Source: Pseudomonas chlororaphis subsp. piscium
GTDB taxonomy: Bacteria; Pseudomonadota; Gammaproteobacteria; Pseudomonadales; Pseudomonadaceae
Assembly: GCF_003850345.1 (NCBI RefSeq)
Contig: NZ_CP027707.1
Location: forward strand, 5,394,001-5,458,000
Reading direction: 5' to 3'
Length of the DNA: 64,000 nt
Shown here: piece after piece, positions 41,823 to 53,016 of the stretch
Layout: every line of letters starts with the position of its first letter
How positions within the stretch are numbered: position 1 is the first letter of the stretch
Position numbers and translations under genes: made by a program
The notes under the pieces: model-generated
What the model saw: only the letters and a program-made list of their open reading frames with translations
Told to the model about the DNA's origin: nothing
Databases searched by the model: none

Positions 41823-43301
41823 TCAGCCCAGCCCTCCCCGTTGAATAAATTCAGTCAGGGCCAGCACATCCACCGAGCCCGGCCGATCCTGATCGAGAAA
41901 GGCCACCTGGCTGCGCACCGCACGGTGGATGCGGGTGCTGCCGACGCCCAGTTGCAAGGGCCCGCGCAGGTCGATGGCCTGGGCGGCGACTATCAGTTCG
42001 ATGCTCGCCAGCCAGGCCAGGCGCTGGGTCAGTTGCCGGGTTTTCTCGATCACCGCCAGGGCCTGGCCGGCGTAGTCTTCCACTCGATCGGCCACCGGCA
42101 CGCAGACTGCCGGCAGCGGATTGGCCAGATGGCCGATCTCCGCCAGCAGCGCCGCGGCACTGCGTTGCAAGGCGGCCATGCCGACATGCCCGGGTCGCTC
42201 GATGAGAAAGCGCGGCAGTTCGCTGGAGGCTGGAGACAGCAGCTTGGCGATGCGCTCGGCGGAACAGGCGGCGACCCGGCTCACAGCCAGCCCCAGGCCT
42301 TCCCCCGCGAGCGCCAGGTGGGTGCTGTCGAAATTGGCGGTGGCCAGGACCTGGCGCTGCTCGTCGATTAATGCCGGGTTATCGGCGCCGCTGGCCAGTT
42401 CCACCTGCAGATGCTCGCGCAGCTGCGCCCAAGCCTGTCGCGCGGCGCCCTGCACCACGCCGGCACAGCGAAAGCTCAAGGGATCCTGCAAGCGCCGGGC
42501 GCTGTCTGGCTGCTGCAACTGGCTGCCCTCCAGCAAGTCCAGCAGCGCCGCCGATTGCTCGGCCTGGCCCGCCGCCGGCCGCAGGCGCGCAGCCCAGGGC
42601 TGGAAGGGACTGAGGTTCGCCCGATAACCTTCGCAAGACAGCGCCAGCGCCGCCAGCAGGCTGTCCAGGGCCTGGTCGGCCTCGGCCAGCAACAGGGCGC
42701 CCAGGCCAATGCTCGCGGCATTCGCCGAGACCAGCACCAGGCCGTCCTTGTCTACCAGCCGTGCCGGTTGCAGGCCATTGCGCTGCAAAGCCTCCCGCGC
42801 CGGCAGCCGCTCGCCGCGCCAGTGCACCCAGCCCTCGCCGAGCAGCGCCAGGCTCAGGTGCGCCAATGGCGCCAGATCGCTTTCCCCCAGGGAGCCAAGC
42901 AAGGGCACCTCGGGTTCGATCCCGGCGTTGAGCAAGGCCAGCAAGCTGTCGGCGCTGGCCTGGGAGATCCCCGAGCGGCCCTGGGCCAGCCCGGCCAGGC
43001 GCGCGGCAATCATCACCCGCAGTTCGGTCCGCGTGGCCAGGCGCCCGATACCCACGGCCCGGCCCAGGGGGATCCGCCGTTGCAGGTCGTCATCCGGCTG
43101 GGTCAGGGTCAGATCCACCGCCGCGCCGAGGCCGGTGGTCACGCCGTAGATGGCGTCGCCCGCGGCCATCCGTTCCCGCAACAACCCATGACCGGCGGCG
43201 ATCCGTTGCCGGGTGGCCGGGGTGAATTGCAGCGCCGCATTTTCGCGGGCAACGCGCAGCAGGTCAGCCAGCGCCAGGCCTTGCGGGCCCAGGCCGATCA
43301 T
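41823..43301 (-). CDS. Histidine-ammonia-lyase-like protein lacking the MIO triad
   Basis: 492 residues with the overall fold of the HAL/PAL family (AIYGVTTGLGAAVD at 50-63; LGSLGESDLAPLAHLSLALL at 135-154; LQDPLSFRCAGVVQG at 271-285; ADNPALID). The Ala-Ser-Gly that cyclises to the MIO electrophile is missing: canonical GSVGASGDLAPL reads GSLGESDLAPL, one residue shorter. The catalytic Tyr of QDPYSLRC is Leu 275, the LINGTQ Asn region reads LVSANAAS, and SANQEDHVSM reads LIERPGHVGM. Ammonia-lyase activity is therefore unlikely and the function is open. Its ATG overlaps the stop of the upstream OCD-like gene, so the two are made together. Confidence 0.85.
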   Translation of the reverse strand: MIGLGPQGLALADLLRVARENAALQFTPATRQRIAAGHGLLRERMAAGDAIYGVTTGLGAAVDLTLTQPDDDLQRRIPLGRAVGIGRLATRTELRVMIAARLAGLAQGRSGISQASADSLLALLNAGIEPEVPLLGSLGESDLAPLAHLSLALLGEGWVHWRGERLPAREALQRNGLQPARLVDKDGLVLVSANAASIGLGALLLAEADQALDSLLAALALSCEGYRANLSPFQPWAARLRPAAGQAEQSAALLDLLEGSQLQQPDSARRLQDPLSFRCAGVVQGAARQAWAQLREHLQVELASGADNPALIDEQRQVLATANFDSTHLALAGEGLGLAVSRVAACSAERIAKLLSPASSELPRFLIERPGHVGMAALQRSAAALLAEIGHLANPLPAVCVPVADRVEDYAGQALAVIEKTRQLTQRLAWLASIELIVAAQAIDLRGPLQLGVGSTRIHRAVRSQVAFLDQDRPGSVDVLALTEFIQRGGLG

Positions 43302-44302
43302 GCGAAACGCAGCCGCTGGCCGATGCCCAGGCGCCGGGCCTTTTGCAGCAGGGCATGGCCCAGGGCGATATCGCTGAGGCTCAGGCCACGGTGCCAGAAC
43401 AGGATGTTTTCTTCGGCATGCTGCCGGCCGCTACGCTGGCCCGCGACTATCTGCCCGAGCTCGGCGTGCAGGGTTTGTTCACTGAGTTTGCCGGCCTCGA
43501 CGTGGGCCCGCAGCGCACCGAACATCCCGCCCTTGCACTGGCCCCAGTCGTCCACCACCAGCTTGTCCATGATGTCGGTCAGCGACAGCTCCACCGCGCT
43601 CATGGTGCCGTAAGGCACGACAAAGGCACCGGGCTTGATCCACTCGGTGCGCAGCAGCGGTTCGGGCTGGTTCAGCCGCGACGCCTCGACCACAATGTCC
43701 GCGCCGCGCACCGCGCTCTCCCAGTCGTGGGTGACGATCACCGGCTTGCCCAGGTCGCGGCGCAGGCGTTCGGCAAAGGCTTCGCGGCTGTCTTCGCGAC
43801 GCGAGTGCACGCGGATTTCCTCGAAGTCGAACAGGTGGTCCAGCAGCCGCACGTTCCAGTACGCCGTGCCGCGAGCGCCGATATGGGCCAGCGCCTTGCT
43901 GTCCGGGCGGGCCAGGTACTTGGCGCCGATGGCGGTGATCGCACCGGTGCGCATATCGGTGATCGCCGAGGCATCAAGGATCGCCTGGGGCACGCCGGTG
44001 GCCGGGTCCAGCAGGTTGAGGATCGCCAGTTCCGACGGCAGGCCCTGGCGGTAGTTGTCGACGAAGTCGCCCACCACCTTGACCCCGGCGTGGCCGATGT
44101 CGCCACCGAGCACCCCGCGCAGCACATTGAAATGGCCGTTGATAACGCCCCCGGGAATCAGGTGGGTGCGCGGCTCGATCACCGCTTCGCCACGGCCCTG
44201 GAGCGCCAGGCTGGCTTCGATGGCGGCGAGGATCTCGTCGTTGCTCAGGGCCAGCTCGGCGATGTCCAGGCCGTTGAGAAAATCGATATAGATGGGTTTC
44301 AT
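43298..44302 (-). CDS. Ornithine cyclodeaminase / mu-crystallin family protein
   Basis: 334 residues. Family blocks: GVKVVGDFVDNYRQGLPSEL, AITDMRTGAITAIGAKYLAR, then a Rossmann domain and a C-terminal return. The nucleotide-binding loop reads HIGARGTAYWN, not the usual GxGxQA, and the position of the catalytic Asp (usual ...VNAVGAD) reads FVVPYGTMS, so neither NAD use nor cyclodeaminase chemistry is assured. ATG 44302 starts five bases after the stop of the binding-protein gene. Coupled by overlap to the HAL-like gene. Confidence 0.85.
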   Translation of the reverse strand: MKPIYIDFLNGLDIAELALSNDEILAAIEASLALQGRGEAVIEPRTHLIPGGVINGHFNVLRGVLGGDIGHAGVKVVGDFVDNYRQGLPSELAILNLLDPATGVPQAILDASAITDMRTGAITAIGAKYLARPDSKALAHIGARGTAYWNVRLLDHLFDFEEIRVHSRREDSREAFAERLRRDLGKPVIVTHDWESAVRGADIVVEASRLNQPEPLLRTEWIKPGAFVVPYGTMSAVELSLTDIMDKLVVDDWGQCKGGMFGALRAHVEAGKLSEQTLHAELGQIVAGQRSGRQHAEENILFWHRGLSLSDIALGHALLQKARRLGIGQRLRFA

Positions 44303-44307
44303 GTGGC

Positions 44308-45237
44308 TCACTCGCTCTTGAATACGATCTGCTCGATCCGCACGGCCTTGGGGATCAAGTGGTTGGCGAGGAACAGGTCGGCGGTGCGTTGCTGGCTGGC
44401 CACGACCCGGGCATCGATGCCTTGCAGCGGCGAGCGCGAACGATGGCTGAAGTAGCTTTCCACCACCGGCCGTTGCAGGCCGAGGATGCGCGTCATGCTG
44501 TCGATGCTGGCGTCGCGCTGGTCGAAGGACAGCTGCTGGGCCGCGCCGAAGGCCTTGAGGATTGGCGCCACGGCAGCGCCGTGCTGACGCACGAACGCAC
44601 CGCTGGCGATGTAGAAGCTGCCGCCGGAATCCAGGCCCTGGCCATCGCTGAGCAGGCGTGCGCTGCCGTCGAGCAAGGCTGCCGAATAGTAGGGATCCCA
44701 GATCACCCAGGCGTCCAGCTTGCCCTGCTCGAACGCCGCGCGGGCATCGGCCGGCGACAGGTACACCAGGCTTACGTCGCTGAGTTTCAGGCCGGCGCGT
44801 TGCAGGCTCTTGAGGAAGAAATTGTGCGCGCTGGAACCCTTGAGCAGCGCCACCCGCTTGCCCTTGAGGTCGGCCAGGCTCTGCGCCTGGCTGTTCTTGG
44901 GCAGCAGGATGGCTTCGGTCTTGCCGTCGCTGGGCTCGACGCCGATGTATTGCAAGTCGATCCCCGCGGCCTGGGCAAAGATCGGCGGGATGTCACCGAT
45001 ATTGCCCACATCCACGCTGCCGCCGTTCAGTGCCTCGATCAGTTGCGGGCCGCCGGGGAATTCGATCCATTGCACCTGGGTGCCCGGCAAGGCTTTCTCC
45101 AGCAACTGGTGCTCGCGAGCCAGGACCATGCTCACCGAGCTTTTCTGATAGCCGATCCGCAATTGCCCAGGCTCGGCGGCCAGGACCAGCGCAGCGCAGA
45201 GCGTGAGACACAGGGTGACGATAAAACCTTTGAACAT
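44308..45237 (-). CDS. Aliphatic-sulfonate-type ABC solute-binding protein (SsuA/TauA-like)
   Basis: 309 residues. Signal peptide 1-20 (LCLTLCAALVLAA). Mature part begins LRIGYQKSSVSMVLAREHQL as in SsuA, with FPGGPQLIEALNGGSVDVGN, LKGKRVALLKGSSAHNFFLK and DAWVIWDPYYSAAL, all ligand-site blocks of the family. The mature protein has no Cys and few Met, as is common for sulfur-starvation proteins, but the set is too small to weigh. No permease or ATPase gene is near; the gene leads into the OCD and HAL-like genes. Confidence 0.88.
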   Translation of the reverse strand: MFKGFIVTLCLTLCAALVLAAEPGQLRIGYQKSSVSMVLAREHQLLEKALPGTQVQWIEFPGGPQLIEALNGGSVDVGNIGDIPPIFAQAAGIDLQYIGVEPSDGKTEAILLPKNSQAQSLADLKGKRVALLKGSSAHNFFLKSLQRAGLKLSDVSLVYLSPADARAAFEQGKLDAWVIWDPYYSAALLDGSARLLSDGQGLDSGGSFYIASGAFVRQHGAAVAPILKAFGAAQQLSFDQRDASIDSMTRILGLQRPVVESYFSHRSRSPLQGIDARVVASQQRTADLFLANHLIPKAVRIEQIVFKSE

Positions 45238-45443: not shown

Positions 45444-46457
45444 TTACAGGGCGGCGCTGACGCGGCTGGCGATTTCGCTCGGCACCCAGCCTTGCCAGAC
45501 CTGCGGCTGCTCGCGCAGGAAGGCCTCGGCGACCTGGCGCGGTGGCTGGCGGGTTTCGCTCATCTGGCCCAGGGTGCGGTTCAGCAGGTCGATCGGCAGG
45601 TCGACCTTTTCAAAGAAACTCACCAGCTCCGGGTACTGCGCCTTGAACGGCGCGGACACGCCGATGGCCAGGTGCGCCGGCATCGACCGGGTGCCCTGCG
45701 GATGGGGGTTGCTGGCATCGGCCAGGGTCTTCCAGGCCTCGGCGTTGAAGGCTGGCTCCTCCAGCTTCACCAGCTTGAACTTGCCCAGTAGCGGCGTCGG
45801 CGACCAGTAATAGAACAGCACCGGTTTGCCGCGGCGGATCGATGAGCTGACCTCGGCATCCAGGGCCGCGCCGGAACCGGTGCGGAAGTTCACGAAGCTG
45901 TCGCTCAGCCCATAGGCCTTGAGCTTCTGGCTGTTGACGATTTCCGAGGTCCAGCCAGTGGGGCTGTTGAGAAAGCGCCCACGGCCCGGGTCTTCCGGAT
46001 CGCGGAACACCTCCTTGTAGCGTGCCAGGTCAGCCACCGATTTCAGCTCCGGCGCCAGCGGCTTGATACCGCGCTCGGCATCGCCCTTGATCACGTATTC
46101 CGGCACCCACCAGCCTTCGGTGGCGCCCTTGACCGTATCGCCCAGGCCGAACACCTTGCCCTCGGCTTCGGCCTTGACCCAGGCCGGACTGCGCCCGGCC
46201 CACTCTTCGCCAATCACCTGGATATCGTTCTTGGCAAGCGCCGCTTCGAGGCTGACCGTGCTGCCGGGCAGGGTCTCGGTCGGATAGCCGTAGCCCTTCT
46301 CGACGATCAGCCGCAGCACCTCGGTGATCAGGCTGCCGCTTTCCCAGGTGATGTCGCCGAAGTGGATCGGCGCCGGCTTGTCCGCCGCTGGCGCCTGCTG
46401 GGCCAGCAGGCTGAAAGTCAGCAGCGAGGTGCCGAGCAGGTGTTTGATGATCTTCAT
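45444..46457 (-). CDS. Glycine-betaine-type (OpuAC/ProX-like) ABC solute-binding protein
   Basis: 337 residues. Signal peptide ends QQAPAA before DKPAP. Mature: IHFGDITWESGSLITEVLRL, GYPTETLPGSTVSLEAALAK, VIGEEWAGRSPAWVKAEAEG, GATEGWWVPEYVIKGD and PVLFYYWSPTPLLGKFKLV, the aromatic-box blocks of the OpuAC fold for quaternary amines or similar cations. It stands without a permease or ATPase gene, between the TonB receptor gene and the SsuA-like gene, all on the same strand, and a REP cluster separates it from the latter. Confidence 0.9.
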   Translation of the reverse strand: MKIIKHLLGTSLLTFSLLAQQAPAADKPAPIHFGDITWESGSLITEVLRLIVEKGYGYPTETLPGSTVSLEAALAKNDIQVIGEEWAGRSPAWVKAEAEGKVFGLGDTVKGATEGWWVPEYVIKGDAERGIKPLAPELKSVADLARYKEVFRDPEDPGRGRFLNSPTGWTSEIVNSQKLKAYGLSDSFVNFRTGSGAALDAEVSSSIRRGKPVLFYYWSPTPLLGKFKLVKLEEPAFNAEAWKTLADASNPHPQGTRSMPAHLAIGVSAPFKAQYPELVSFFEKVDLPIDLLNRTLGQMSETRQPPRQVAEAFLREQPQVWQGWVPSEIASRVSAAL

Positions 46458-46596: not shown

Positions 46597-49251
46597 TTAA
46601 AAGTCGTAGCTGAGCCTGGTGTAATAGAACGCCCCCTCCGGCGCCGACGGCGACAGGTAGCTGTACTGCTGCCCCGGGGTCTGGCGCAGGCGGGTGTTGA
46701 AGTCGTCGGGCTTGCTGTCGAACAGGTTGTTGGCGCCCACCGACAGGCGCAGTTGCCGGGTGAAGGCGTAGTTGACGTCCAGGTCGGTGTTCCACTGCGC
46801 AGAGAAGGTCTGGTCGTACTGCGCGTTGGCCGCCGACGCCGCGTATTTGCGGTACTCGCCATAGCGGGTCTCGGACAGCGCGATGGTCCAGGGGCCGTAG
46901 CGATGGATCGCCCCCAGCACCAGCTTGTCTTCCGGGTAGCCGTGTTCGAGGAAGCCCTGGGCTTCGCGGGTCAGCACGTCGAAGCCGAACGGGTTGGAAT
47001 GGATCTTCTCGATGCTGGTGCGGGCCTTGGTGTAGCCGGCCGACAGGCTCAGGGCGCCGTAGCGCTGCAGGTCGAGGTTGTACTTGCCGACGATGTCGAC
47101 GCCACGGGTGCGGGTGTCGGCGGCGTTGGTCATGAACTGCGCCCAGGTGTACTGGCCGAACCCGGCCTCGCTGAGAATCCGCTCGGCGTCCGGCCCGGAA
47201 ATCCCGCCGCTGTAGAGCAGCCGGTCGCGGATGGAGATCTGGTAGGCGTCGATGGTCAGCGACGCCTGCTCGCTCGGCCGCAGCACCAGGCCCAGGGAAT
47301 AGTTGGTGGACTTCTCCGGCTTCAGCGGCTGCGCGCCCAGGGCGCGGGCCGCCGGGTGGTCGGCCGGGAGCATGCGGGTCAGCACCGGGTTGCCGTTGAT
47401 ATCGACGTTGGTGGTGGTGGTCCAGGAAGTGCCGATCTGCCCCAGGGTCGGCGCCCGGTAGGCGTTGTTGACCGTGGCCCGCAAACCCACCTGCGGGGTG
47501 AAGTCGTAGCGCGCCGAGAGCTTGCCGGTGGTGGCCGAGCCGAAGTCGGAATAGTGCTCGGTGCGCCCGGCAAGCCCCAGCTGGAACTTGTCGGTGACCT
47601 GGTTTTCCATGCCGAAATACACCCCGCCGACATGCCGCTTGTAGGTCCCGGCATCGTCCGGGGTCAGGCCGGATGCCTGCACCGCGCCCACTTGCACGCC
47701 ATCGATGCCGCCGAAGGAATAGGAGGAATAGTCGCCCTCCTCCAGCCGGTACTGCTCGTCGCGATAGGCCACCCCCGCCGAGACTGTGAGCGGATGCTCC
47801 GACCAGGCGACGTCCAGGTCCTTGGCATAGTCCAGGGTCAGGTTGGTCTGTTCGTTGACCAGCGTGGCCACGTCGAACTTGGTCGGGCTGTTGGCGCCGT
47901 AACTGGGGTTGACCGTGTTGAAGGCCAGTTCGTCGTGCTTGTCGCGGCCATAGGTGGCGCTGAGGTCGAAGCGCCCGAGGCTCTCGTCCTCGTAGCGGCT
48001 GCCCACTGTCAGCGCGCCATCCTCATAGCGGTAGCGGTACTTGGGAATGGTGCCGTTGGGGTAGATCGAGGCGACGTTGTTGGGGTTGCTGGCCAGCAGC
48101 GGCGGCGTGTTGTTGACCGACTTGTCCTGGCCGAAGGTGGCGAAGCTGTAGAGTCGCCACTGATCGCTGAGGCCGACTTCGGCGTTGGCCGCCAGGTTGT
48201 ATTTGTCGCGACTGGCGCCGCCCCAGCGCGGGTCCTGCAACTGGCCGCCGGCTTCATATTTGTCGCCGATGTCGGTGGGTTTGTTGTTCAGGCCATTGAA
48301 GCTCAGGGTCAGGAAACCATCCCCCGGCAGGCCCAGGCCGTACCAGCCATCGGCGCTCTTGCTGAAACCGTCGCCCTGGGCGTACTGGCCCAGTTGGGTG
48401 TTGAGCTGGCCACCGCTGTCGCGCTCCTTGAGCACGATATTGACCACCCCGGCCACCGCGTCGGAACCGTACTGCGCCGAGGCGCCGTCGCGCAGCACTT
48501 CGACATGGTCGATGGCGCTGATGGGAATCATGTCCAGGTCCACCGGCTGCGCGCCAATGAAGGGTACGCCGCCGGAGATGTTGACCACCGCCGAGGCGTG
48601 CCGGCGCTTGCCGTTGATCAGCACCAGGGTCTGGTCCGGCGACAGCCCGCGCAGGGAAGCGCCCTTGGGGTTCTGCCCGCGGGTGGCGCTCTGGTTCTGT
48701 GGAAAGTTGAACGACGGCAGCAGTTGGAACAGCGCCTGGTTGAGGCTGGTGGCGCCGGTCTGCACCAACTCCTCGCTGTTGATCACGTCCACCGGCGCCG
48801 CGCTGGTCAGGGCCGTGGCGTCGCTGCGCCGGGTACCGATGGCCACCACCCGGTCGAGGGTCGGGGCCGCGGCTTCGCTGGCCTGGACCTTGGCCTTGCT
48901 GCCGGTCGCGCTCGCCGGTTGCGGGCCTTCCTTGATGATGAACGCGCCATCCGGGCTGACTTGCAGTTGCAGGCCGGTGCCGCGCAAGGCAGCCGCCACC
49001 GCCTGCTCGGCGGACAACGAACCATCGACCCTGGCCGAGGAGTAGTTGCCCAGTTGCGGGGTAAAGGAAATCACCTGGCCGCTTTGCCGGCTGATGCTCA
49101 GCAGCACCTCGTCCAGCGGACCGGGTGCCAGGTGGTATTGCTGGCGAGCCGCTTCGGCCCCCTGGGCGCCAGCAAGAAACAGCGCGGCCAAGGGGCCGAT
49201 GGCCAAGGCCAGACGCGAACGACGCTGCACGGTTGTGGATATAGGCAACAT
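46597..49251 (-). CDS. TonB-dependent receptor/transducer with N-terminal signalling (STN) domain
   Basis: 884 residues. Signal peptide 1-34 or so (LAIGPLAALFLAGAQGAEA). An STN domain follows (YHLAPGPLDEVLLSISRQSG, NYSSARVDGSLSAEQAVAAA), then a linker, the plug (VDVINSEELVQTGATSLNQA; LRGLSPDQTLVLINGKRRHA; DHVEVLRDGASAQYGSDAVA) and a 22-strand barrel ending with YYTRLSYDF (terminal Phe). The STN domain and the FecI/FecR genes upstream mean that it probably signals its own ligand to the sigma factor. The ATG at 49251 has GGGGGGAG. The ligand may be a compound bound by the two adjacent solute-binding proteins; this is inference. Confidence 0.93.
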   Translation of the reverse strand: MLPISTTVQRRSRLALAIGPLAALFLAGAQGAEAARQQYHLAPGPLDEVLLSISRQSGQVISFTPQLGNYSSARVDGSLSAEQAVAAALRGTGLQLQVSPDGAFIIKEGPQPASATGSKAKVQASEAAAPTLDRVVAIGTRRSDATALTSAAPVDVINSEELVQTGATSLNQALFQLLPSFNFPQNQSATRGQNPKGASLRGLSPDQTLVLINGKRRHASAVVNISGGVPFIGAQPVDLDMIPISAIDHVEVLRDGASAQYGSDAVAGVVNIVLKERDSGGQLNTQLGQYAQGDGFSKSADGWYGLGLPGDGFLTLSFNGLNNKPTDIGDKYEAGGQLQDPRWGGASRDKYNLAANAEVGLSDQWRLYSFATFGQDKSVNNTPPLLASNPNNVASIYPNGTIPKYRYRYEDGALTVGSRYEDESLGRFDLSATYGRDKHDELAFNTVNPSYGANSPTKFDVATLVNEQTNLTLDYAKDLDVAWSEHPLTVSAGVAYRDEQYRLEEGDYSSYSFGGIDGVQVGAVQASGLTPDDAGTYKRHVGGVYFGMENQVTDKFQLGLAGRTEHYSDFGSATTGKLSARYDFTPQVGLRATVNNAYRAPTLGQIGTSWTTTTNVDINGNPVLTRMLPADHPAARALGAQPLKPEKSTNYSLGLVLRPSEQASLTIDAYQISIRDRLLYSGGISGPDAERILSEAGFGQYTWAQFMTNAADTRTRGVDIVGKYNLDLQRYGALSLSAGYTKARTSIEKIHSNPFGFDVLTREAQGFLEHGYPEDKLVLGAIHRYGPWTIALSETRYGEYRKYAASAANAQYDQTFSAQWNTDLDVNYAFTRQLRLSVGANNLFDSKPDDFNTRLRQTPGQQYSYLSPSAPEGAFYYTRLSYDF

Positions 49252-49320
49252 GACTCCCCCCAAAAGCATCCAACAATGGAAATCCAACAACGCTGCTCCC
49301 CGCAGCGTTTACGGGAGTGA

Positions 49321-49370
49321 TGTGCAACGGCCGGGCGAAAACTTGCAGATCCTTTGGTTATGGTCTTAGA
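49321..49370 (-). promoter_or_regulatory. 50-bp element shared with the desaturase promoter (copy 1, TonB receptor)
   Basis: Aligned without gaps to 52967-53016, 38 of 50 bases are identical. Conserved blocks read on the plus strand are TGTGCAACG, AAAACTTGCAGATC, GGTTAT and CTTAGA. It ends 69 bases before the TonB receptor ATG on the minus strand, so it probably contains the promoter and a binding site, possibly for the FecI-like sigma factor at 50452. Confidence 0.7.
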
Positions 49371-49401
49371 ACCACCTCAAGCGGCGCAGGCCAATGCTTC
49401 T

Positions 49402-49483
49402 GTAGGAGCGCAGCTTGCGCGCGATGCAGCCAACGCGGTGGGCCAGGAAAACCGCCATCGCGGGCAAGCCTCGCTCCTACAGA
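49402..49483. repeat. REP pair
   Basis: GTAGGAGCGCAGCTTGCGCG and CGGGCAAGCCTCGCTCCTAC, between fecR and the TonB receptor promoter. It separates the fecIR transcript from the receptor gene. Confidence 0.88.
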
Positions 49484-49490
49484 AGCAGGG

Positions 49491-50450
49491 TCAGGCGGCA
49501 CTCAGGGTTACCCACAGATCGGTATGGCGGGTAATGCGGATCGGCAGGGTGCGGGCCAGGCTGTCGAGGATCTGTTGCGGGTTGTCCAGGCGGAACAGGC
49601 CGCTGACCCGCAGCCCGGCGATGGCCGGATCCAGGCGCAACACCCCGCGTCGATACGGGCGCAATGCTTCCACCACTTCCGACAGCGGCGTATCGCGCAG
49701 CTCCAGCAAGCCGTCGACCCAGGCCGTGGCACTGCCACGGCTCGGGCGCACCGGGCCGAAATGGAAGGCGTCGTAGGCCACCTCATGGCCGCCGGGCAAT
49801 TGCAGGCGTTCGCCACTGCGCCCGGCGATGTCCAAGGGACCGTTGAGCGCCGTGGCATGCCCCTGGCCGTCGCGTTCGCGCACCAACAGGCGGTTGCCCG
49901 TGGCCTGGATCCGCGCCTGCGCGGTGTGGATGAAAAACGGTCGGGCCGGATCGCTGGCCAGGTTCAGCAGCACTTCGCCATCCAGCAAATGCACCACCCG
50001 ACGCTGGCGATCGAAGTCGATGTTCGCCGCGCTCCGGGCATTCAGGCTCAGCTCGCTGCCGTCCGGCAGGCTCAACGACTGGCGCTGGCCGGTGCCGGTG
50101 TGCAGGTCCGCGGTCAGCTCGGCCAAAGGCAGGCCGCGCTGACTGACCAGCGCCCCCGCCCCCAGCACTACGCCGGCGCCGAGCAAGGCCCGCTGTAGCA
50201 CCTTGCGCCGACTGCTCGGGGCGTTCAGCGCCCGCTGCAACAGCTGGCCATTGACGCCCTGGGCAATCGGCACCTGGAACACCCCAAGGCGGGTTTCCAA
50301 CTGGCGACACAGCTGCTCGTGCCGCGGGTCCGCATTGCGCCAGCGCTGGTAGGCTCGGCGCTCGGCCTCGCTGGCCTGCCCCGAATTCATCAGCACCCAC
50401 CAGCGGGTGGCGTCGTCGATCAGCTGTTCCCGACTCGGTTCGTGGCTCAT
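49491..50450 (-). CDS. FecR-family anti-sigma / signal-transducing membrane protein
   Basis: 319 residues. Cytoplasmic N-terminal anti-sigma domain with DDATRWWVLMNSGQASEAER and RWRNADPRHEQLCRQLETRL; one transmembrane helix near 88-105 (LLGAGVVLGAGALV); periplasmic FecR domain with TADLHTGTGQRQSLSLPDGS, ELSLNARSAANIDFDRQRRV and a C-terminal STN-like segment SGLFRLDNPQQILDSLARTL. It passes the receptor signal to the FecI-like sigma factor, whose gene ends one base before. Confidence 0.92.
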   Translation of the reverse strand: MSHEPSREQLIDDATRWWVLMNSGQASEAERRAYQRWRNADPRHEQLCRQLETRLGVFQVPIAQGVNGQLLQRALNAPSSRRKVLQRALLGAGVVLGAGALVSQRGLPLAELTADLHTGTGQRQSLSLPDGSELSLNARSAANIDFDRQRRVVHLLDGEVLLNLASDPARPFFIHTAQARIQATGNRLLVRERDGQGHATALNGPLDIAGRSGERLQLPGGHEVAYDAFHFGPVRPSRGSATAWVDGLLELRDTPLSEVVEALRPYRRGVLRLDPAIAGLRVSGLFRLDNPQQILDSLARTLPIRITRHTDLWVTLSAA

Positions 50451-50451
50451 G

Positions 50452-50973
50452 TCATTCCAGGCTCAGGCGCAGACAACGCTGGGCGGCCCGGGTCATGTAG
50501 TCGCTGACCGAACGTTGCGAGATGCCCAGTTGCTCGGCGATCTGCGGGTAGGTCAGGCCGTTGACCTGGGACAGCAGGAAGGTCGCCTTGACCTTGGCCG
50601 GCAGGCCGTCGAGCAGGCGGTCGATGGCTTCCAGCGCCTCGAGCATCTGCGCCAGGTCCTGGGGCGAGGGCTGCACGGCTTCGTCGTCATGCTGCAAGGC
50701 ATCGAGGTAGGCCCGCTCCAGGTCGCGACGGCGCCACAGCTGGTACACCAGGCGTTGCGAAATGGTGGTCAGCAGGGCCCGTGGCTGGTGGATCGGCAAT
50801 ACTTCGGGCCTGCTCAACAGCTGGACGAAGGTGTCGGCGGCAATGTCTTCGGCGCTGGCGCCGGCATCCAGGGAGTGGTGCAGGTGGTAGCGCAGGCGGC
50901 TGCACAGCCAGTCGTAATGACTGCGGAACAGACCGCCCACATAGTCGCTGTGAGTGGTGTCGGCGCCGGACAT
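50452..50973 (-). CDS. FecI-like ECF sigma factor
   Basis: 173 residues. Region 2: LFRSHYDWLCSRLRYHLHHS, SAEDIAADTFVQLLSRPEVL, PRALLTTISQRLVYQLWRRR; region 4: LDGLPAKVKATFLLSQVNGL, TYPQIAEQLGISQRSVSDYM. Standard FecI/PvdS-type iron-starvation sigma. It lacks an upstream copy of the 50-bp element, so it may be driven by a Fur-type promoter in the AT-rich region before it. Confidence 0.92.
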   Translation of the reverse strand: MSGADTTHSDYVGGLFRSHYDWLCSRLRYHLHHSLDAGASAEDIAADTFVQLLSRPEVLPIHQPRALLTTISQRLVYQLWRRRDLERAYLDALQHDDEAVQPSPQDLAQMLEALEAIDRLLDGLPAKVKATFLLSQVNGLTYPQIAEQLGISQRSVSDYMTRAAQRCLRLSLE

Positions 50974-51040
50974 AGTGGCTCCAATGAAGAAGGTTGCGCG
51001 GTATGTCCGGTGTTCCGGTGCGGCGATCCTAACAAGGAAG

Positions 51041-51100
51041 GCTTATTCTTTAATAATATTTAAATTTCATTTTTATAGAATTTTATGGAATTAAAAGATA
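51041..51100 (-). promoter_or_regulatory. AT-rich segment upstream of fecI-like gene
   Basis: About 60 bases of mostly A and T (TTCTTTAATAATATTTAAAT within it) in an otherwise GC-rich region, 70-130 bases before the sigma gene. The location suits a promoter and Fur box, but no copy of the Fur consensus can be read with certainty. Confidence 0.4.
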
Positions 51101-51151
51101 AGCGGCGCCTGCTGGATTTTCGCCAGCAAGCCCGCCTCTCCAGGGATGCTT

Positions 51152-51943
51152 TCAGCGCAGCCGTGCGTAACCCAGCTCTTCAGCCTCGCGCTGATAGTCG
51201 AGGAGGATCTGGTAGTCCGTTTCAGCGGCCGGCAGCACCTCCCGCAGCCCGAGGGTTTCGGCCACGGCGGGCAGTGCCAGCAGCGCCTGGTTCATCGCCG
51301 CACGAATGCGTTCGGCCTGTTCCTCGCCAAGGCCGGCCACCCCGATATAGGGCAGGGTCGGACTGAAAGCGCTGCGGGCGATCACCCGCAGGCCAGCCAC
51401 CTCCTCCTCGGCATAACGGGCCAGGTAGGCGAAGGTCACGCTGTCGATGGCGGCCAGGTCGGCCTGCCCTTGCCGCAGCCAGCGCAGGCTTTCCCGGTGG
51501 CTGCCGCTGATGCCGACACTGGCGAAAAACCGGCCGTCGCGCTGCAGTGGCGCGAGGCGCTGGCGCAACAGGTTCATGCCGCTGTTGGAGTCTTCGCCGT
51601 TGATCACCCCACGACTGCCCCGCAGGGCCTGCAAGGTTCGGCGCGGGTCGTTGTCACGGCCGAGCAGCAGGCTGCAATGATTGCCGGCCGTGCTGTCCGG
51701 CAGCTCGTAACGCGGCCGGCCGATGACCCGGACCTGGCCGCGCAGGGCGGTCATCAGCGGGTAACCGCAGGTCTGGGTCAGCAGCAGGCGCGGCGACAGC
51801 CACAGCTGCATCAGGTCCAGCTCCCGGGCATCGAGCCGGATGCAGTCGAGGCGCTGCAGGATCGCCGCCAGCCACTGTTCATTGGCCTGGCGAACCGGCT
51901 CGGGGGCGACGTACATCAGCAGTTCGGCATAACAAGCAGTCAT
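51152..51943 (-). CDS. PhnD/SsuA/transferrin-type substrate-binding protein without signal peptide
   Basis: 263 residues with the PhnD-like periplasmic binding fold: YAELLMYVAPEPVRQANEQW, LLLTQTCGYPLMTALRGQVR, LRGSRGVINGEDSNSGMNLL, SGSHRESLRWLRQGQADLAA, IDSVTFAYLARYAEE, PTLPYIGVAGLGEEQAERIR. No signal peptide or lipobox is present at this start, so it may be cytoplasmic and act as a sensor or carrier. It begins 22 bases after the desaturase stop and is probably cotranscribed with it. Confidence 0.82.
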   Translation of the reverse strand: MTACYAELLMYVAPEPVRQANEQWLAAILQRLDCIRLDARELDLMQLWLSPRLLLTQTCGYPLMTALRGQVRVIGRPRYELPDSTAGNHCSLLLGRDNDPRRTLQALRGSRGVINGEDSNSGMNLLRQRLAPLQRDGRFFASVGISGSHRESLRWLRQGQADLAAIDSVTFAYLARYAEEEVAGLRVIARSAFSPTLPYIGVAGLGEEQAERIRAAMNQALLALPAVAETLGLREVLPAAETDYQILLDYQREAEELGYARLR

Positions 51944-51965
51944 GGTTCAGGCTCTTCGGGCTCGA

Positions 51966-52910
51966 CTACAGGGCGAAGGGATGTTCGGGGCTGTCGATCG
52001 GCTTGAGGGCATGGCGCCGCAGCAGCTCGCCATAACCCTGCACCACAAAGCCGCCACTGCGCGCCTGCCATTGTTCGCGGCGCTGCCGATAGGCCCGTGG
52101 CAGGCAGTACCACGGCAGCCCGGGCAAATCATGGTGCACCAGGTGCAGGTTGAGGTGCAGGAACAGCCAGGTCCAGGGCCACGCCGCTTCGTTGAGCACC
52201 GTGCGCTGCTCCACCTGGGCGTAGGGGCGGTGCTCGTAGAAGGAACGGAGCATCGCCACCGACAGCGCCGGCACGCTCACCAGCAGCAGGTAATGCCAGA
52301 CCGGCAACACAGTGTAGCGGGCAATGAAGGCCAGCATCAGCAGGGTCAGCGCGCCATGGGTCAGCCACATCAGCCAGGCCTGGCGTTGCCCCTGGCGCAG
52401 GCGCAACCCTTCTTCCCGCGCCAGCGCCAGCAGGGCCAGGGGCGCGCCGAGCAGCAGCCGCCCCAGCAGGGTCTTGTTCAACCAGTGCAGGCCCTGCTCG
52501 AACAGCGAACGGCTGTGCCATTGGCGCTGGCCCAGGTAGCGGCTTTCCGGATCGCGACCGGGCAGGGTCAGGTCTTCGTCGCGGTGATGCTGCAGGTGGC
52601 TGTCGCGGTACAGGGTATAGGGGTACCAGACGGCAAAAGGCGCATAGCCCAGCAGCTTGTTCAGCCACAACCAGCGCGTGGGGTGGCCGTGCAGCAGCTC
52701 ATGCTGCACCGACAGCCACAGCACCAGGATCGGGATCAGCAACAGGGTACTGGGCCAGAGCCCCAGCAGCGGGCTGGCCAGCAGTACGGCGAACCAGCTG
52801 GCGCTGGTGCCGATCAGCAACAGCCAGGTGGGCCATTCGGTGCGGGCGGTGAAGGTCTGGCGCAGGGTGTCGATTTGTTCGCGGTGCAGCGGATCAAAGT
52901 AATGGGCCAT
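51966..52910 (-). CDS. Fatty-acid-desaturase-family di-iron membrane enzyme
   Basis: 314 residues. Three His boxes: HELLHG (HX3H), HLQHH (HX2HH) and the C-terminal LHLVHHDLPGLPWY; hydrophobic helices lie between (LLLIGTSASWFAVLLASPLL; LTLLMLAFIARYTVLPVWHY). The last box with the DLPGLPWY tail is of the desaturase/ketolase/hydroxylase group acting on varied lipids, carotenoids or other hydrophobic compounds. ATG 52910 chosen; the longer frame would begin inside the promoter. The 50-bp element shared with the TonB receptor gene stands upstream, so it may modify the imported ligand or answer the same signal. Confidence 0.88.
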   Translation of the reverse strand: MAHYFDPLHREQIDTLRQTFTARTEWPTWLLLIGTSASWFAVLLASPLLGLWPSTLLLIPILVLWLSVQHELLHGHPTRWLWLNKLLGYAPFAVWYPYTLYRDSHLQHHRDEDLTLPGRDPESRYLGQRQWHSRSLFEQGLHWLNKTLLGRLLLGAPLALLALAREEGLRLRQGQRQAWLMWLTHGALTLLMLAFIARYTVLPVWHYLLLVSVPALSVAMLRSFYEHRPYAQVEQRTVLNEAAWPWTWLFLHLNLHLVHHDLPGLPWYCLPRAYRQRREQWQARSGGFVVQGYGELLRRHALKPIDSPEHPFAL

Positions 52911-52966
52911 GGCGCTACTCAGGACAGGGGCTGGCCGAGGGGCGAACCTTCGGCGTCTTGCTGTTC

Positions 52967-53016
52967 TGTGCAACGAGAAGGGAAAAACTTGCAGATCGAT
53001 GGGTTATTTACTTAGA
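52967..53016 (-). promoter_or_regulatory. 50-bp element shared with the TonB receptor promoter (copy 2, desaturase)
   Basis: The partner of 49321-49370, same orientation to the gene and similar distance (56 bases before the desaturase ATG). Conserved blocks: TGTGCAACG, AAAACTTGCAGATC, GGTTAT, CTTAGA; the variable positions are clustered between them, as expected for functional contacts. Confidence 0.7.

Follow-up and report, generated by a model that had tools for sequence, protein, structure and literature searches.

The stretch of DNA analysed here (the window; 64,000 nt of Pseudomonas chlororaphis subsp. piscium NZ_CP027707.1, with positions within the window as coordinates throughout) carries on its minus strand a FecI-type sigma factor gene and a FecR-type regulator gene, flanked by a TonB receptor operon and by a desaturase gene with a PhnD-like protein behind it (Table 1). 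The sigma factor scores 151.6 bits against the FecI model NF041727, under the cut-off of 260, and the FecI-type NCBIfam models all stay below their cut-offs; the N-terminal signalling STN domain of the receptor was detected at E 1.1e-4 and 22.4 bits, under the 28.4-bit cut-off. NCBIfam matches of the desaturase lay far under cut-off and a sequence search returned no solved relative of it. The nearest solved relatives of the PhnD-like protein are AioX and ArrX, and no leader was found in the 13 of its 98 orthologs that were inspected.

Table 1. Genes and sequence features of the locus in the window.
Feature	Position	Strand	Basis or remark
Aromatic-lyase-family protein, no MIO tripeptide, ergothionase-like	41823..43301	-	PF00221
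Ornithine cyclodeaminase-family protein	43298..44311	-	PF02423
SsuA-family sulfonate-type binding protein	44308..45237	-	NF008588, TIGR01728 above cut-off
OpuAC-type betaine-binding protein	45444..46457	-	PF04069
TonB-dependent receptor, predicted target 1	46597..49251	-	PF00593, PF07715
Element copy 1	49321..49370	-	upstream of TonB receptor; 38/50 identity to copy 2
Core of copy 1	49321..49349	-	proposed -35/-10 of the sigma's promoter; 1 of 2 exact genome sites
Outer box of copy 1, CTAAG-N3-ATAACC	49356..49369	-	pattern search
FecR-type sigma regulator	49491..50450	-	PF04773, PF16220; adjacent to sigma in the window
FecI-type ECF sigma factor, 173 aa	50452..50973	-	Sigma70_r2, r4_2 above cut-off; proposed element reader
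Sigma gene promoter: AT-rich box plus -10-like TTGTTAGGA	51027..51084	-	conserved
Leaderless PhnD-like protein behind desaturase	51152..51943	-	PF12974
FA_desaturase-family membrane enzyme, predicted target 2	51966..52910	-	PF00487
Element copy 2	52967..53016	-	upstream of desaturase; 38/50 identity to copy 1
Core of copy 2	52967..52995	-	exact match
Outer box of copy 2	53002..53015	-	pattern search; replaced in many FecR-less relatives

A rare element upstream of the receptor and the desaturase

An initial annotation had reported a 50-bp element in two copies, identical at 38 of 50 bases, upstream of the minus-strand starts of receptor and desaturase. Both the alignment and the placement proved exact: Markov shuffling of the two upstream regions gave, over 60 pairs, best 50-base identities of at most 27 (mean 23.8), and gaps of 69 and 56 bases separate copies 1 and 2 from the receptor ATG at 49251 and the desaturase ATG at 52910, respectively. 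On the minus strand the core of the element reads TCTGCAAG-N14-TTGCACA, and at up to three mismatches CTAAGNNNATAACCNNNNGATCTGCAAGTTTT has two matches in the window versus none in 100 shuffles. The element is also rare in the genome as a whole (7,065,155 bases), where CTAAGNNNATAACCNNNNNNNCTGCAAG, again with up to three mismatches, recovered both exact copies and two 3-mismatch matches, against one for a reversed-pattern control. The core itself occurs in the 7.07-Mb genome as 2 exact, 2 one-mismatch and 15 two-mismatch sites (control 2), the surplus of inexact matches over the control probably reflecting base composition. Scored with a matrix derived from relatives, the two copies reach 45.2 and 37.5 and the other 17 genome matches all stay at 12 or less. 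One weight matrix was trained on sites chosen for a near-exact core, and its scores for the core are partly circular. The outer TCTAAG-N3-ATAACC box is retained, with variants, at the receptor promoters of relatives, and is missing in many relatives. Reading of the sequence also revealed a REP-like inverted repeat adjoining copy 1 (about 49400-49490), and the receptor leader contains a conserved hairpin downstream of the element.

Conservation of the element and its coupling to the sigma gene

We then considered 80 named Pseudomonas loci, which had been fetched by their desaturase, so that the upstream regions were unselected for the core. CTGCA[AG]G-N17-CACA lies upstream of the desaturase in all 80, and the core with at most two mismatches precedes it in 79. 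When conservation was recounted on all 80 upstream regions without any picking of sites, the mean fraction held by the commonest base was highest in the core (0.98), followed by the downstream flank (0.75), the spacer (0.69) and the upstream flank (0.51). A second copy is found at the TonB receptor in each of the 11 named loci that have this gene, and the 69 receptor-less loci gave as further matches only two isolated 2-mismatch ones (L044, L060).

Across 298 Pseudomonas genomes we found 77 exact cores, spread over 74 genomes, and 65 of them have a sigma ortholog no more than 6 kb away. The other 12 comprise three strays, five relics of a deleted operon, two contig breaks, one contig end with no sigma found elsewhere and one intact desaturase without a sigma. 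The element is thus not scattered over unrelated sites, a possibility weighed in the initial annotation, since no more than 3 of the 77 exact cores have no gene of the locus nearby. Conversely, a sigma ortholog (at least 54% identity) is present in 95 genomes, 31 of which have no exact core; when the loci of these 31 were fetched, every one carried CT[AG]CA[AG]G-N17-CACA before the desaturase, a count that is not independent of those for the 80 loci and the 77 cores because the named loci overlap the genome set.

This co-occurrence of element and sigma is partly inherited, as linkage alone keeps neighbours together. In sp. JUb42 (L070), desaturase, PhnD and OpuAC genes with an exact core stand apart from the sigma ortholog (76%), which is unlinked and alone; the element tracks the sigma even there, supporting the proposal of the initial annotation that the element defines a possible FecI regulon. 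The same order of desaturase, PhnD and sigma, together with the element, recurs in one genome from a different genus of the family. P. farris (L083) has an intact desaturase and an exact core with no sigma ortholog, its best match (50%) having its own FecR-type gene, and in the L060 assembly the contig stops after PhnD, with no sigma ortholog found elsewhere (best 44%).

FecR and the receptor are an optional part of the locus

A FecR gene stands next to the sigma in 10 of the 80 named loci and was not found beside it in the other sigma-bearing loci. The steady partners of the sigma are the desaturase, the leaderless PhnD-like protein and the OpuAC protein, whose gene comes after the sigma in the FecR-less loci examined; FecR and receptor are optional and have been lost repeatedly. 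Of the grouping of receptor, desaturase and binding protein made in the initial annotation, the desaturase and the PhnD-like protein are steady members, to which sigma and OpuAC are added, and the receptor is an optional one. Surface signalling, likewise, applies to a minority of the loci seen and not to the rest, because receptor and FecR form the optional part. Several sigmas with recent FecR loss have longer branches than their FecR-bearing kin, which may indicate decay. In one genome (G238) the sigma gene is interrupted by a stop codon.

A conserved box upstream of the sigma gene

Upstream of the sigma gene, 93 of the 98 regions considered align on TTGnTA[CG][CG]AT. A genome pattern search with this box returned five other matches (control 2). 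Of the five, one is at a TauD-type operon, one at an operon for an ABC permease of cystine/methionine type and one at a related TonB receptor; these three share further consensus, inverted relative to the sigma. Pattern searches with the box gave 6 and 8 matches, self included, versus controls of 2 and 6; a stricter AT pattern matched the sigma promoter alone (control 2), and when 14 SsuA-family loci of this genome were scanned with a weight matrix for the box, nothing scored above -5. The likeness to the three sulfur-type promoters, seen by eye and in pattern searches with controls of 2 and 6, is for that reason weak, and suggests control of the sigma by sulfur rather than iron, in which case the gene would answer sulfur limitation.

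Interpretation of the element

Together, the scarcity of the element, its placement, its conservation and its coupling to the sigma and receptor genes are best explained by its being the target promoter that the FecI-type sigma uses, which we consider very probable. Conservation is strongest in a promoter-like core of two blocks held at a fixed distance, which makes the sigma's own promoter a likelier identity than an operator. We infer that the sigma holoenzyme would read the element through the two blocks, which we propose as -35 and -10; we found no published motif for checking this assignment. In the P. chlororaphis genome the sigma would serve two promoters, one for the desaturase and PhnD-like protein, the other for the TonB receptor together with the downstream binding proteins and enzymes. 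Receptor and FecR would adjust sigma activity in the window in the manner of cell-surface signalling. Most of the relatives examined have neither gene beside the sigma, and there it would be governed by its own amount, as set by the conserved AT-rich promoter of its gene.

It is improbable, in our view, that the element is instead bound by another regulator, an activator or repressor such as a LysR-type protein, with the sigma as a mere neighbour. The two TGCA blocks repeat at a distance of 21 bases, roughly two turns of the helix, an additional outer box is present, and P. farris and the L060 assembly have the site without the sigma, all of which would fit such a regulator; against it, neither element copy holds a detectable sigma-70-type promoter, the block spacing is fixed whereas the outer box can vanish, and JUb42 retains its sigma ortholog at another location. 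CysB was dropped as a direct reader, given that the element is confined to the locus and CysB serves many genes. Function as a leader RNA, either riboswitch or attenuator, is very improbable: the distance of 56-69 bases to the start codons and the receptor hairpin would suit it, but no inverted repeat is visible in the core, the hairpin comes after the element, and an Rfam search placed no family near the element, its only two matches being weak, eukaryotic and outside it. We give virtually no credence to a REP- or MITE-like repeat, mobile or recombinational, that lacks a regulatory role, despite the REP-like repeat beside copy 1, as there are just two exact copies genome-wide, the relatives examined carry them before the starts of the same genes, and the core is conserved beside a variable spacer; copy number and position led to its rejection.

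A different question is what the sigma itself answers to. A standard iron system, with the sigma under Fur control and a receptor that imports a ferric siderophore, would agree with the FecI, FecR and TonB receptor families being mostly iron systems (excerpt of PMC9249621), yet the three sulfur-type matches to the sigma box and the SsuA-family protein in the receptor operon speak against it, and we regard it as somewhat unlikely.

Relation to known systems

Like FecI-FecR-FecA, the window has a FecI-type sigma, a FecR-type regulator and a TonB receptor side by side and, on comparative evidence, a private element at the receptor promoter. Unlike that system, it has a second target, the desaturase with the PhnD-like protein, which is the better conserved one, and FecR and receptor are absent beside the sigma in most relatives examined; nor did the gene content and promoter pattern searches examined here point to iron control. 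The element offers a predicted promoter through which an ECF sigma would control a regulon of two targets, and the relatives form a natural series, from a full sigma-FecR-receptor system to stand-alone sigmas, in which the role of an ECF sigma after loss of its regulator and receptor could be followed. Neither locus nor element was named in the titles and abstract openings covered by a literature search.

In P. aeruginosa, the gene for the ECF sigma PvdS is under CysB control (Imperi 2010, cited in an excerpt of PMC12581299). If our reading of the AT-rich box is right, the window holds another ECF sigma gene answering a sulfur regulator; sigma and targets differ from those of PvdS, and CysB control here is a suggestion. 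SfnR of P. putida, which depends on sigma-54 and is itself under CysB regulation, governs dimethyl sulfone use (cited in an excerpt of PMC10256816); to this arrangement the two-step sulfur cascade proposed here would be similar, except that an ECF sigma, not a sigma-54 partner, would act in the second step. Were the sulfur link true, FecI-type signalling would extend past iron in Pseudomonas.

In such a cascade, sulfur starvation would lead a CysB-type regulator to switch on the FecI-family sigma. The sigma would in turn activate genes to import and degrade a betaine that contains sulfur, ergothioneine for instance (receptor, OpuAC, SsuA and the MIO-less lyase), as well as those for a di-iron membrane enzyme and a PhnD-like sensor in the cytoplasm. 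In the majority of species with the sigma, it would be freed of FecR and receptor and act as a dose-controlled switch for the di-iron enzyme. We consider this full scheme unlikely as it stands. Ergothionase releases trimethylamine from ergothioneine, and the solved enzyme (6s7j/6s7q), from Treponema denticola, is the best solved match of the window lyase, with 6s7j on top. Like ergothionase, the lyase has no MIO tripeptide, GES-D replacing the GASGD of histidine ammonia-lyase in an alignment to both, and is a candidate for the same activity; it is confined to part of the loci. EgtU belongs to the OpuAC family. It is an ergothioneine-specific ABC transporter protein (excerpt of PMC9732360); the OpuAC protein of the window differs from it in being nearest 7yle, named a glycine betaine/proline-binding protein.

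Two element copies flank the FecI/FecR pair

We recomputed the alignment of the two 50-base stretches upstream of the receptor and the desaturase and obtained 38 identical positions out of 50, exactly as the initial annotation had claimed; when both upstream regions were shuffled, the best of 60 pairs reached 27. The ATG starts lie 69 bases (copy 1) and 56 bases (copy 2) from the element, again as annotated, and the copies do flank the FecI/FecR pair, copy 2 standing ahead of the desaturase and copy 1 ahead of the receptor. The minus-strand order runs from the desaturase through a leaderless PhnD-like protein, the FecI-type sigma factor, FecR and the TonB receptor to an OpuAC protein, an SsuA-family protein, a cyclodeaminase-family protein and an aromatic-lyase-family protein.

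Coordinates of the genes and sequence features of the locus (window positions)
Feature	Position	Strand
Element copy 1 (receptor)	49321-49370	minus
Element copy 2 (desaturase)	52967-53016	minus
Desaturase	52910-51966	minus
FecI-type ECF sigma factor	50452-50973	minus
TonB receptor	46597-49251	minus
Aromatic-lyase-family protein	41823-43301	minus
Hairpin in receptor leader	49289-49309	minus
REP-like inverted repeat	49400-49490	
Direct repeat in sigma gene leader	about 50985-51025	minus

The genome scan proposed with the annotation was run, and the element proved rare at unrelated sites: its core, TCTGCAAG-N14-TTGCACA, occurs in two exact copies in the 7,065,155-base genome (one contig), and in the 298 Pseudomonas genomes surveyed only three of 77 exact cores lack any locus gene nearby (G287, G104 and one of two in G150; G numbers denote surveyed Pseudomonas genomes). 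A pattern search found no third element copy within the 64-kb window. The whole genome holds 17 imperfect cores, two with one mismatch and 15 with two, against two for a reversed control; a weight matrix trained on relatives scored the window copies at 45.2 and 37.5 and all 17 imperfect cores at 12 or less, and gave no matches at 31 other loci of the same genome.

A hairpin, CGCTGC..GGAGCAGCG, lies between the element and the receptor ribosome site; it recurs, slightly varied, in the receptor leaders of the relatives inspected and is a possible sign of leader-RNA control. A REP-like inverted repeat, read from the sequence, sits between fecR and the element.

The core is conserved ahead of the desaturase

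Using the desaturase as query, we fetched Pseudomonas loci (L numbers) and analysed the best 80 of 147 confirmed candidates. Among these 80, CTGCA[AG]G-N17-CACA precedes the desaturase in every locus and the longer core, at two mismatches or fewer, in 79 (L106 has three). The gap between CACA and the start codon is 29-33 bases at 64 loci and 50-55 bases at the other 16. FecR and receptor occur together in ten of the 80, and one further locus, L061, has a receptor without FecR; there a fragment of the FecR start remains, and behind it the receptor leader and the element, whose copy was read directly, are intact. All 11 receptor loci carry a second core (at most two mismatches) ahead of the receptor. 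Beyond these, the search of all 80 gave just three more core matches, each isolated and with two mismatches (L044, L045, L060).

A sigma match spanning at least 40% of the protein was present in 75 of these best 80 loci. In L077, one of the other five, the contig (L255) ends within the sigma gene; in L099 it stops after PhnD, the ortholog and OpuAC opening another contig of the assembly; in L060 it likewise stops after PhnD, and no sigma ortholog was found in the assembly (best match 44%). The last two are L070, whose sigma gene is elsewhere, and L083, which has lost it; both are described below.

Conservation was counted over all 80 desaturase upstream regions, unpicked, with mostly-gap columns dropped. 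In the core the commonest base had a mean share of 98%, against 69% across the spacer that separates its blocks and 51% in the flank upstream; the downstream stretch, which includes the leader and start, gave 75%. Distant members have TCTACAAG as first block and CGCGCCACA or similar as second, and even there the distance to CACA is 17 bases. Because two short blocks keep a fixed spacing, the core resembles a sigma promoter, in which we infer the assignment of the blocks to -35 and -10. Receptor promoters retain the outer TCTAAG-N3-ATAACC box, with variants, as do some distant desaturase promoters; many FecR-less species have other sequence in its place.

Core and sigma factor across the genus

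Across 298 Pseudomonas genomes from a larger set, we found 77 exact cores in 74 genomes, against one match (G066) for the reversed core. A sigma match with E no higher than 1e-45 was present in 97 genomes; matches at roughly 48-52% identity were taken for paralogs and left out, and as G051 and G067 have only such matches, 95 ortholog genomes remained. An ortholog lies within 6 kb of 65 of the 77 exact cores, in 63 genomes. The other 12 cores comprise, besides the three without locus genes, five relics, in which the desaturase is cut to an 18-24-codon stub (G058, G183, G220) or nothing convincing is left (G128, G231), two contig breaks (G199, G223), one genome whose contig ends after PhnD and whose assembly yielded no ortholog elsewhere (G107, its contig as long as that of L060), and one with an intact desaturase and no sigma (G233, its contig as long as that of L083).

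Exact cores were absent from 31 of the 95 ortholog genomes; the loci of all 31 were fetched (19 + 12), and each carries CT[AG]CA[AG]G-N17-CACA ahead of the desaturase. Among their receptor-bearing loci, L247, L279, L281, L283 and L284 have their own element copy at the receptor, and in L280, whose contig is as long as that of L061, the automated search gave no copy, since the match to the receptor begins within the gene; the copy was read in L061. Outside this count, the sigma paralog of G051 (L246) comes with separate FecR and receptor matches; the weight matrix found no element there. Locus and genome counts are not independent, since the named loci and surveyed genomes overlap. In the order, a desaturase at E 1e-70 was found in three of 293 sampled genomes; two are Pseudomonas, and the third belongs to a different genus within the family. 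Its desaturase, PhnD and sigma genes follow the window order, and it has an element of the CGCGCCACA kind.

Fossil promoters were seen in L250, L252, L253, L254 and L256, where the element outlives a deleted desaturase operon and the gene is a stub or nothing, and likewise in L261, with a non-exact element.

Two genomes separate the sigma gene from the element. In strain sp. JUb42 (L070) an exact core accompanies the clustered desaturase, PhnD-like and OpuAC genes. The sigma ortholog of this strain, 76% identical, lies at a separate position, with no FecR or receptor matches within the 16 kb fetched around it; the genome has therefore kept both element and sigma although they are apart on the map. 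P. farris (L083) is the counter-case: desaturase and core are present, but PhnD, sigma and OpuAC have no matches at the locus, nor is there a sigma ortholog genome-wide. Its core and near upstream sequence are almost identical to those of L084, a relative that has the sigma, which points to a possibly recent loss.

Repeated loss of FecR and receptor

FecR and receptor presence was assessed next to the sigma gene. Sigma and OpuAC are co-oriented in 80 loci that lack FecR (drawn from L034-L113 and L230-L249), and in five of these (L054, L062, L087, L096, L236) a receptor tail lies between them or in frame with sigma, with differing breakpoints; that of L096 is ten residues (E 0.01). In these five loci the receptor has been deleted. 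A phylogeny of 97 sigma proteins implies nine changes in FecR state, of which strongly supported branches require five. One supported group comprises 72 FecR-less sigmas; depending on where the tree is rooted, this group may derive from a single loss of FecR or may always have lacked it.

Median dN/dS was 0.255 for sigma genes without FecR (81 genes, 3069 pairs with dS 0.1-1.5) versus 0.183 for those with it (10 genes, 45 pairs), indicating that stand-alone sigmas are still constrained overall. Several recent FecR losers have long branches (L054, L108, L153; less so L096, L104), which may reflect relaxed constraint.

Relation to known systems and possible function

The locus would work like FecI-FecR-receptor systems and in the window holds the same parts, and its gene content makes it a member of them (the receptor STN match is below cut-off). 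It is a variant of that kind: it has a second, better-conserved putative target, and relatives have repeatedly lost its signalling half; the titles and abstracts searched do not name it.

In the receptor operon, the SsuA-family protein matches its family above cut-off, the OpuAC protein is of the betaine-binding kind, and the lyase has ergothionase as its best solved relative and, like it, lacks Ala-Ser-Gly, which forms the MIO cofactor in histidine ammonia-lyase. Together these suggest a quaternary-ammonium, perhaps sulfur-bearing, substrate, as a lead only and a rather improbable one. The nearest solved relatives of the PhnD-like protein are AioX and ArrX, which are sensors. By inspection, no leader was seen on this protein in any of the 13 orthologs examined out of 98; at least 20 in-frame codons are open upstream of the gene in 45 of the 98, where a start further up is possible.

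Control of the sigma gene

The region upstream of the sigma gene is strikingly conserved, with an AT-rich box followed by a -10-like word, TTGCTAGGAT, on which 93 of the 98 regions considered are alignable; the box is recognisable also at the unlinked sigma of JUb42. Besides this site, the box pattern has five matches in the genome at three mismatches or fewer (control, two). A further consensus is common to three of them, where the box is inverted relative to the sigma gene. One adjoins a TauD-type dioxygenase/binding-protein operon, another a permease operon beside a methionine-type binding protein, and the last precedes a TonB receptor (L266 3-1397, minus strand) 39% identical to the window receptor over 434 aligned positions. 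Gene names at these matches were read from translations, except for the binding protein beside TauD, which has an SsuA-family match below cut-off.

The AT-rich box hints that the sigma gene might be under sulfur control, perhaps by CysB, a reading we hold tentatively because a matrix scan of 14 SsuA-family loci gave no match to the box. A precedent for a CysB-controlled ECF sigma factor is PvdS, according to the title of a reference in PMC12581299. The sigma gene leader also contains a direct repeat, CACCGGAnCACCGGACAT, kept in most of the relatives listed.
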